Translations under genes and position numbers: made by a program
The notes under the pieces: model-generated
The model's input: the letters and a program-made list of their open reading frames with translations, nothing else
Told to the model about the DNA's origin: nothing
Databases searched by the model: none
Assembly: GCA_035308905.1 (NCBI GenBank)
Contig: DATGFS010000059.1
Location: forward strand, 1 to 51,570
Source of the DNA: a bacterium
Lineage (GTDB): Bacteria; Sysuimicrobiota; Sysuimicrobiia; Sysuimicrobiales; Segetimicrobiaceae
Direction: 5' to 3'
DNA: 51,570 nt
Part shown: in pieces, positions 31,442 to 33,725 of the stretch
Layout of the letters: every line of letters starts with the position of its first letter
Position numbering within the stretch: the stretch's first letter is position 1

Positions 31442-31469
31442 TTGACTACGAACATATGTTCGCTATCAT
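31442..31469 (+). promoter_or_regulatory. promoter with perfect LexA (SOS) box in its spacer
   Basis: TTGACT (31442-31447) and TATCAT (31464-31469) are separated by 16 bases. The palindrome CGAACATATGTTCG (31449-31462) fills that spacer. It is the Gram-positive LexA/DinR operator pattern CGAAC-N4-GTTCG, so LexA binding would block RNA polymerase directly. The next gene is therefore predicted to be DNA-damage inducible. The expected transcription start is about 2-3 bases before the ATG at 31479. Confidence 0.85.
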
Positions 31470-31478
31470 GAGTTCACC

Positions 31479-33410
31479 ATGCTGCCTGAGCGCCAGATCT
31501 CCGAGATCACGGTCAAGTCGGTGCTGAACCCCGTCAAAGGAATGCCCTTCCGATGGTCGATCAATCCCTACCGGGGCTGTTCCCACGGGTGCGTCTTCTG
31601 CCAAGCGGGAGACACGCCGATTCTGATGGCAGATGGCACGACGAGACCACTCGAGATACTCCGTGCAGGCGATGAAGTCATCGGGACGGTCCGACGTTCG
31701 CGGTACCGTTACTACACCGCGACACCCGTATTGGCGTGTTGGAACACCGAGAAGCCGGCCTTTCGGGTCATCCTCGAAGACGGAACAGCGCTCGTTGCCA
31801 GCGGCGATCATCGTTTCCTGAGCGACAGGGGCTGGAAGTTCGTGACCGGCACTGAACACGGCGCCATGAGACGTCCACACCTAACTTTGAACAACACACT
31901 GATCGGAACCGGCGCCTTCGCCCCGCCTCCAACTAAGAACGACGACTACGAACGTGGCTACCTGTGCGGCATGATACGAGGCGACGGGTTGCTCGCATTC
32001 TACCAGTATGATCGGCCCGGGCGGGCTCACGGCAATCAATGGCAATTCCGGCTTGCGCTGACGGATGGCGAGGCCCTCAGCCGATCGCGCGAGTACCTGA
32101 CGCATTTCGCGGTGCCCACACAAGTCTTCAGCTTCCAGCAGGCCAGCGGAGCCTGGCGAGCCGCGAACGCGATTCGCACCCATGCACGCCGCGACGTGGA
32201 GGCTGTACAGAGAATCATCGTGTGGCCCGCCGAGCCATCTCCAGAGTGGTGCCAAGGATTCCTGGCCGGGATCTTCGACGCCGAAGGTAGCTGGTCTCAA
32301 GGTATCTTGCGTATTTCAAACACCGACCCGAGAATCATCGACTGCATCGTTCATTGCCTGCAGCGGTTTCGTTTTGCCTTTGCGGTCGAGCACCGGACTC
32401 CGAATCAAGTGAAACCGATCACCTGTGTTCGGCTGCTTGGGGGTCTCCGCGAGCACCTACGTTTTTTCCACTCCTTCGACCCTGTCATTACAAGGAAGCG
32501 CAATTTCACCGGCCGCGCGGTGAAGAATAAGCGCCTCGCCATCGTCTCGATTGAGCCGGTCGGCGTTCGCCGGCTCCACGACATTAGTACCGGCACGGGA
32601 GACTTCATTGCCAACGGCATCGTCAGCCACAATTGCTACGCCCGGCGGACCCACTGGTTTCTCGAAGAGGACGGCGTGCAGGAATGGTCCTCCAAGATCT
32701 TCGTGAAGGCCAACGCTCCGGACGTGCTGCGCACCGAACTGCGGCGGCGTACGTGGAAACGTGACGAAGTCGCGCTGGGGACGGCCACGGATCCATACCA
32801 GGCAATCGAGCGCAAGTACAAAGTGACTCGCCGCATTCTCGAGGCGCTCTGTGAGTCACGCACGCCGGTCAGCATCGTGACGCGTTCTCCCATGATCCTT
32901 CGGGATCTTGACGTGCTGACCGAACTCTCCCGCCGCGCCGCGGTGACGGTGTGCGTGAGCATCGTGACAACCGACCCGCGCATGGCGCGCGAAATCGAGC
33001 CGACCGTGGCGCTCCCGGCACAGCGGCTTCGAACGGTGCGGCGTTTGTCGGACGCGGGCATCCGTGCCGGGGTGATCCTCGCGCCCATCCTGCCGGGCCT
33101 GACCGACGATCCGGCGAATCTCGACGCGGTCATGCAGGCCGCCCGCGACCACGGCGCCCACTTCGTGAGCCATAACGTGCTCCATCTCGGGGAAGTGACA
33201 CGCGACGCGTTCTTTCAGTTCTTGAAAGAACGGTATCCGGCACTTATTCCACGCTATCTACGCATGTATCGCGGCAAGTATGCGCCGGACGCGTACCGGG
33301 CGGACGTCGGCGAGATCGTGGACGCATCCAAGAGACAGCACGGCATCCAGGCCCGCCGGCACCTCGCGCCGCCGGCGGAGCCGGCCCAACTGCCGCTGTT
33401 TGCGGGTTAA
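31479..33410 (+). CDS. radical SAM protein, SplB / Rv2578c-like, interrupted by an intein
   Basis: The precursor has 643 residues; removal of the intein (residues 41-385) leaves 298. The extein is a radical SAM protein of COG1533 (SplB, 'DNA repair photolyase' type): NPYRGCSHGCVF joined to CYARRTH gives the cluster motif CxxxCxxC (C34, C38, C386). Later phrases are ALGTATDPYQAIERKYKVTR and VSIVTRSPMILRDLDVL, then ILAPILPGLTD. Relatives include spore photoproduct lyase, but this Rv2578c-like branch has no proven reaction. The gene follows a LexA-box promoter, lacks a Shine-Dalgarno and seems leaderless. The long N-terminus before C34 is needed by the family, which supports this start. Confidence 0.93.
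   Translation: MLPERQISEITVKSVLNPVKGMPFRWSINPYRGCSHGCVFCQAGDTPILMADGTTRPLEILRAGDEVIGTVRRSRYRYYTATPVLACWNTEKPAFRVILEDGTALVASGDHRFLSDRGWKFVTGTEHGAMRRPHLTLNNTLIGTGAFAPPPTKNDDYERGYLCGMIRGDGLLAFYQYDRPGRAHGNQWQFRLALTDGEALSRSREYLTHFAVPTQVFSFQQASGAWRAANAIRTHARRDVEAVQRIIVWPAEPSPEWCQGFLAGIFDAEGSWSQGILRISNTDPRIIDCIVHCLQRFRFAFAVEHRTPNQVKPITCVRLLGGLREHLRFFHSFDPVITRKRNFTGRAVKNKRLAIVSIEPVGVRRLHDISTGTGDFIANGIVSHNCYARRTHWFLEEDGVQEWSSKIFVKANAPDVLRTELRRRTWKRDEVALGTATDPYQAIERKYKVTRRILEALCESRTPVSIVTRSPMILRDLDVLTELSRRAAVTVCVSIVTTDPRMAREIEPTVALPAQRLRTVRRLSDAGIRAGVILAPILPGLTDDPANLDAVMQAARDHGAHFVSHNVLHLGEVTRDAFFQFLKERYPALIPRYLRMYRGKYAPDAYRADVGEIVDASKRQHGIQARRHLAPPAEPAQLPLFAG
31599..32633 (+). mobile_element. intein with LAGLIDADG homing endonuclease
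   Basis: This is a 345-residue in-frame intein. It begins with Cys1 (CQAGDTPILMADG, block A), has the block B histidine in ASGDHRFLS (H111 of the precursor), two LAGLIDADG helices (YLCGMIRGDG at 161-170 and FLAGIFDAEG at 261-270, both acidic residues kept) and ends FIANGIVSHN with the penultimate His and terminal Asn. The +1 residue is Cys386. All splicing residues and both nuclease acids are present, so it looks active. Its codons are less GC-rich (ATA, AAT, TTT and TCA appear) than the flanking extein, consistent with horizontal arrival. Confidence 0.95.
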
Positions 33411-33425
33411 GCGACGTCGCGACGG

Positions 33426-33725
33426 CTACCGCGGGACCGCGTCCATCGGACAGCGGCACGGCGAGGCTTCGCATCGCGGACAACCGGCGGCATAACGGGC
33501 GGCGGCCTGGTCGAGATCCACGTCGCACAGCACCGCCACGCTCAAGGTCCAGGCGAGGACGTCGGAGAGTTCGGACGCAAGCGCGGCATGGTCTCCACTG
33601 CGAATGTCCTTGGCAACTTCCCCGATCTCCTCGACGAGACGCCGGAAGGTCCCGTCGATGCCGCGCGTCCGATCCCTATCGCTGAACGTCGCGGCGATCT
33701 GAGCCTGCAGCGCGCCGAGGTCCAT
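33426..33725 (-). CDS. MazG-like nucleotide pyrophosphohydrolase
   Basis: This 99-residue all-alpha NTP pyrophosphatase has the MazG metal motif LVEEIGEVAKDI (EExxE, about 30-41) and ELSDVLAWTL (ExxD, about 52-61). Such enzymes remove aberrant or surplus nucleotides. The C-terminal CPRCEASPCRCP contains four cysteines, unusual for the family, and may bind a metal. It is convergent with the radical SAM gene and follows the DUF4177-like gene by 11 bases. Confidence 0.82.
   Translation of the reverse strand: MDLGALQAQIAATFSDRDRTRGIDGTFRRLVEEIGEVAKDIRSGDHAALASELSDVLAWTLSVAVLCDVDLDQAAARYAAGCPRCEASPCRCPMDAVPR

Follow-up and report, generated by a model that had tools for sequence, protein, structure and literature searches.

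A radical-SAM gene of the Sysuimicrobiales with a predicted LexA-controlled promoter, an intein in its iron-sulfur site and a putative clamp-binding tail

Introduction

Radical-SAM genes of the SplB type (COG1533) are already known to be under LexA control in several phyla. Published examples come from alpha- and beta-Proteobacteria, Bacteroidetes, Balneolaeota, Gram-positive bacteria and Streptomyces venezuelae (vnz_31145) (PMC8565304, PMC3323433, PMC7739468, PMC9380542). A seven-species Gram-positive analysis that included Mycobacterium tuberculosis likewise counts "a radical SAM protein" among the members of the core SOS regulon. The intein-containing Rv2578c protein is also known, as a named NCBIfam family. 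The family is widespread, and SOS regulons have included it for years with no function assigned. Its closest solved structural relative, spore photoproduct lyase (SPL), depends on the cysteine C141 in B. subtilis (PMC3742179). Two described systems involve the sliding clamp: M. tuberculosis ImuB binds the clamp via QLPLWG, a motif that the M. smegmatis mutasome needs (PMC10421592), and archaeal SplB-like genes adjoin the PCNA-binding repair factor NreB (PMC4929162). Our literature search found no SOS study of the uncultured lineage examined here; among open-access papers, it found none dedicated to the Rv2578c intein and none on a link between bacterial SplB and the clamp or on the tail described below.

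Here, we analyzed a radical-SAM gene in a 51,570-nt stretch of DNA (the window). A sequence-only reading of the window had predicted an SOS-induced, near-leaderless gene and saw in this some support for a DNA-repair or damage-response role. The SOS link is not in itself new for SplB-like genes, for which LexA control is described in the papers cited above. The new observations are an order-wide near-leaderless promoter anatomy, a clamp-type tail and a series of alleles at the intein insertion site. We assign a probability of about 0.7 to the reading that the gene encodes an SOS-induced, clamp-tethered radical-SAM enzyme, matured by intein splicing, that would act on lesions at stalled replication.

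Promoter and Predicted LexA Regulon

The promoter, the gene and its parts are listed in Table 1. On direct reading, a single A precedes CGAACATATGTTCG and a single C follows it, giving a −35/−10 spacer of 16 nt, and the ATG at 31479 has no purine-rich Shine-Dalgarno sequence upstream. The sequence-only reading had described TTGACT-16-TATCAT with the palindrome in the spacer, as well as a nine-base gap between the −10 and an ATG lacking a Shine-Dalgarno sequence, and both descriptions were exact.

Table 1. Coordinates of the promoter elements, the radical-SAM gene and its protein segments in the window.
Feature	Position	Strand	Basis
−35 hexamer TTGACT	31442..31447	+	sequence; TTGA-type −35 likewise placed in most same-order orthologues
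LexA box CGAACATATGTTCG (predicted)	31449..31462	+	sequence, genome motif, orthologue conservation; fills −35/−10 spacer
−10 hexamer TATCAT	31464..31469	+	sequence; same-order orthologue comparison
GAGTTCACC, 9 nt from −10 to ATG	31470..31478	+	sequence; transcript start expected 0–3 nt from ATG
Radical-SAM gene, Rv2578c/PA0069 branch, with intein; 643-aa precursor	31479..33410	+	
N-extein, 40 aa, first two cluster cysteines, ending NPYRGCSHGCVF	31479..31598	+	
Intein, 345 aa, residues 41–385 (Cys 41 to Asn 385)	31599..32633	+	
C-extein, 258 aa; first residue is the third [4Fe-4S] cysteine and the +1 splice residue	32634..33407	+	
Predicted beta-clamp-binding motif QLPLF, residues 637–641 of 643	33387..33401	+	compared with M. 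tuberculosis ImuB QLPLWG

Pattern searches showed that CGAACATATGTTCG is the sole exact CGAACN4GTTCG in the window, where one-mismatch sites are about as frequent as chance predicts. Across the 81 contigs (4.0 Mb) of the genome, there are 12 exact sites vs. one for the reversed control pattern. The regulon was sought in this genome by pattern, with sites of at most one mismatch surveyed. Two LexA genes scored above the curated cut-off. One lexA has CGAACAGGTGTTTG upstream, near its −35; the other has two near-boxes upstream, CGTACAAATGTTCG and CGTACATTAGTTCG, and the latter also lies between a TTGCAT and a TATTCT. The paralogues are located at G000:C15:31318 (L013) and C22:202921 (L014), and their upstream boxes differ. 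Upstream of recA, we read TTGACATA-CGAACAACTGTTTG-GTATGTT, a TTGACA-box-TATGTT layout as at the radical-SAM gene. An imuA-imuB-dnaE2-like operon (G000:C44:40396; L007, L139) has the identical 14-mer upstream, placed in a promoter laid out like that of the radical-SAM gene (TTGACATAA-box-CTATCCT); its imuB was identified by a Pfam IMS match, and imuA and dnaE2 were named from sequence and position. Perfect boxes also stand upstream of ruvC, ku and a DEAD-box helicase fragment. The perfect LexA-type box at ku lies about 150 bases before the gene (G000:C26:121276; L005) and suggests that end joining may be SOS-linked in this lineage. The other perfect sites are found before unrelated genes or within open reading frames. 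Only five of the 12 precede repair-type genes, and therefore some perfect sites are chance occurrences.

Conservation among Orthologues

We searched 118 relatives for the C-extein, added named relatives from other phyla, and compared the box counts in their upstream regions with those in dinucleotide shuffles. Within the order, a perfect box precedes 19 of 24 usable genes (0.0 expected in shuffles; none inside genes), a count of related genes that, like those from other phyla, does not represent independent events. Here, the box fills the −35/−10 spacer. In other phyla, the core GAACN4GTTC precedes 33 of 76 genes vs. 0.32 expected, with 11/16 in Chloroflexota (often as AGAACN4GTTCT), 13/20 in Actinomycetota and 5/7 in Bacillota; upstream of the Acidobacteriota orthologues, it was found in 0/24. 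The base flanking the core varies by lineage, as expected if each box follows its own LexA. Relatives in the order in which the box is missing or lies elsewhere include L043, L045, L048 and L052, the last with its box far upstream.

With −10 elements called by script, nearly all orthologues in the order that have a box show a gap of 3–12 nt, most often 6–9, from the −10 to the start codon, with L052 as the exception. The near-leaderless anatomy anticipated in the sequence-only reading is thus a trait of the boxed orthologues in the order, which supports a near-leaderless promoter conserved at this rank. A start codon this close behind the −10 in so many relatives makes a leaderless mRNA likely, and for the gene in the window we expect transcription to start within 0–3 nt of the ATG. 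Across phyla, the distance from the end of the box to the start codon is mostly 8–20 nt and reaches 36 where a Shine-Dalgarno sequence is present; leaders resembling Shine-Dalgarno sequences occur in some Bacillota and Dehalococcoidia relatives.

From these comparisons, we consider it very probable that the palindrome is a LexA box, and SOS control of the radical-SAM gene is very likely: the palindrome overlies the promoter, the same motif precedes recA and lexA, and the box recurs before orthologues. This recurrence was one of the checks on which the sequence-only reading had staked its SOS prediction, and the prediction passes it because the box is conserved. Alternatively, the palindrome could be the site of another repressor and resemble a LexA box by coincidence. 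In favor of this, the genome has two LexA paralogues with differing boxes, either of which might be the binder, and several of its perfect sites do not precede repair genes. However, the same motif stands before recA, lexA, imuA-imuB-dnaE2, ruvC and ku, it conforms in type to the LexA motif published for Gram-positive bacteria, and its position in the promoter is kept across the order and several phyla, all of which makes a different repressor highly improbable.

The neighboring genes were also considered. A MazG-like pyrophosphohydrolase gene (33426–33725, minus strand) converges on the radical-SAM gene. An operon partner was rejected: the agmatinase (two genomes) and MazG-like (three genomes) neighbors are common to the genus only, and therefore no functional partner is indicated.

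Intein in the Iron-Sulfur Site

The sequence-only reading had taken the gene as a plain radical-SAM gene and overlooked that its 643-aa open reading frame holds a full intein. The insert has Cys1, a block B GDH with its histidine, the LAGLIDADG homing-endonuclease motifs LCGMIRGDG and LAGIFDAEG, a terminal His-Asn and a Cys at +1, which are the features of a class 1 LAGLIDADG intein. By these features, we infer that the 345-aa insert is self-splicing. A model of the precursor, with moderate confidence (mean pLDDT 68.9), matches the PI-SceI and TliVMA inteins, and the extein part of this same model matches spore photoproduct lyase.

This insertion site also holds inteins, 143 to 354 aa long, at 10 Actinomycetota loci and in no fewer than five further genomes of the order. 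Among these are mini-inteins of 143–166 aa without an endonuclease (L046, L090, L091, L096, L103, L109, L132). The intein in the window is 40–56% identical to the Actinomycetota inteins, compared with 37–41% for the C-exteins. In trees, inteins evolve faster than exteins within each group, and the branch between the phyla is 0.15 for inteins vs. about 1.4 for exteins. This short intein branch beside a long extein branch points to an intein transfer between phyla, which has moderate support (94/93).

The distribution of the intein is patchy, and it is absent from most orthologues of the order. It looks like a homing element placed at the most conserved codons of the gene and is not obviously regulatory. 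One could also read the intein as a conditional switch, in which its Cys1 completes the CX3CX2C of the precursor and cluster loading or oxidation holds splicing, adding redox or iron-sulfur control atop SOS. Consistent with such a switch, Cys1 directly follows CX3CX2 in 16/16 intein-bearing precursors examined, both precursor and spliced product have a complete CX3CX2C, and splicing under redox control has been described for mycobacterial DnaB inteins. However, a Cys1 intein could not be placed ahead of the third cysteine without producing this geometry, and the patchy presence follows the pattern of a homing element, so we regard a switch as improbable and retain the homing element as the preferred reading.

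Two intein-free orthologues from different genera, L033 (G004) and L035 (G003), are one base short at the third-cysteine codon, with reading frames intact on both sides of the insertion site. Inspection of the same-order orthologues brought no further frameshifts to notice. Both genomes encode Ku, which makes an endonuclease cut repaired with the loss of one base plausible. The deletions are therefore possible scars of the homing endonuclease left by Ku-dependent end joining; they could otherwise be assembly errors in metagenome-assembled genomes. Programmed −1 frameshifting was rejected as a common explanation, as the local sequence would yield the cysteine again in L035 but an arginine in L033.

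The homologous region of L085, from Amycolatopsis anabasis, begins near the intein/C-extein junction (ADHN|CFARNTH). A split intein was considered for this locus and rejected, as the 3 kb upstream contain no intein or N-extein, and L085 appears to be a rearrangement at the insertion site.

Enzyme Family and Fold

The best family matches, over the full length, were the NCBIfam models NF038135 (Rv2578c family) and NF038136 (intein-containing Rv2578c family). NF038136 was the top NCBIfam model; it matched residues 9–623 and spans the same insertion. Both scores lie below the curated cut-offs (293.5 bits vs. 430 for NF038135; 534.3 vs. 700 for NF038136), which places the protein in a sister branch rather than within either family. 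The three cluster cysteines (CX3CX2C) are invariant in alignment A2 (45 intein-free relatives), whereas no conserved fourth cysteine is found in the alignment columns of A1 or A2. The model of an intein-free orthologue reached a pLDDT of 93.5, with the C-terminal tail as the low-confidence end. The closest fold in the PDB is spore photoproduct lyase (PDB 4fhg; TM 0.65, 13–14% identity). A scan of viral contigs found no viral carriers of the enzyme, and PADLOC gave no match.

These results bear on whether the gene, as a LexA target, could encode a true lyase of the spore-photoproduct type that reverses the thymine dimer with no involvement of the clamp. In favor of this, no solved fold is closer than SPL, Y/F residues stand on either side of the third cysteine here and in SPL, and the SOS papers annotate such genes as SplB. 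On the other hand, the identity is low, no SPL family model in NCBIfam matched, and a PDB profile search returned chance matches only, to designed helical proteins, with no SPL chains. The position equivalent to SPL C141 is presumably GTATD in this family. The cysteine on which SPL relies (PMC3742179) would thus have no conserved counterpart here, and a C-terminal clamp motif is kept across phyla. A true lyase is therefore unlikely, and the enzyme is SPL-like in CX3CX2C and fold but probably not a spore photoproduct lyase. For the DNA-repair role that the sequence-only reading drew from the SplB (photolyase-like) assignment, this means a divided outcome: the shared regulon and the clamp-type tail favor repair in general, while a strict photoproduct-lyase role is not favored.

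C-Terminal Tail

The protein ends in QLPLFAG. A pentamer or hexamer clamp motif is present in the last 25 residues of 77/106 relatives, 58 of which terminate exactly at the motif, compared with 0.8% of shuffled tails and 4/991 internal windows. The pattern was written after the tails had been seen, although the motif class is a textbook one, and these figures therefore describe the family and do not test a prior prediction. About a quarter of the relatives' tails miss the motif, and the residues leading up to it vary and were modeled with low confidence. A conserved motif of the QL-x-L-F type in a flexible tail is what is expected of a beta-clamp client, and tethering to the clamp via QLPLF is plausible. 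The ImuB of the boxed operon contains QLALW. The archaeal NreB/SplB-like gene pairs offer an independent clamp link for SplB-like enzymes.

For the whole Rv2578c/PA0069 branch, we see even odds that its members are SOS-induced beta-clamp clients, brought by a QLxLF tail to stalled replication, where the lesion might be, for example, a crosslink and not the spore photoproduct.

Discussion

The preferred reading of an SOS-induced, clamp-tethered enzyme can be set out as a series of steps. LexA bound to the palindrome in the −35/−10 spacer would block RNA polymerase, and upon damage, RecA-triggered cleavage of LexA would free the promoter. The mRNA would begin at the ATG or a few bases away. Removal of the intein would put the third CX3CX2C cysteine in position, allowing the [4Fe-4S]/SAM site to form. 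The mature SPL-fold enzyme would be held on the beta clamp of DNA polymerase III by its flexible C-terminal QLPLF tail, and we infer that DNA is its substrate, with 5′-deoxyadenosyl-radical chemistry directed at a lesion where forks have stalled or gaps have formed. The enzyme may work there beside the co-regulated ImuA-ImuB-DnaE2 polymerase.

For a family that has lacked a function, the conserved clamp tail, if real, tells where it works. The alleles at the insertion site (empty, full-length intein, mini-intein and one-base deletions) form a compact natural archive of successful and failed homing.

Compared with the published SOS-regulated SplB/COG1533 genes, the gene is alike in encoding a radical-SAM protein, mostly of the SplB type in those papers, under a LexA box; it differs in its near-leaderless anatomy, intein and clamp-type tail, none of which we found described for those genes. 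With spore photoproduct lyase (PDB 4fhg), it shares the fold, CX3CX2C and the aromatics beside the third cysteine, and it differs in the 13–14% identity, the lack of a conserved Cys141 counterpart and the presence of a C-terminal clamp motif. ImuB of the ImuA′-ImuB-DnaE2 mutasome is likewise SOS-induced and carries a clamp motif, and its operon here has the identical LexA box, but ImuB is an inactive Y-family polymerase and not a radical-SAM protein. In the archaeal NreB/SplB-like pairs, an SplB-like enzyme is linked to the sliding clamp, as proposed here, although in archaea the link is made through a neighboring PCNA-binding protein, whereas in the present case the enzyme carries the motif itself.
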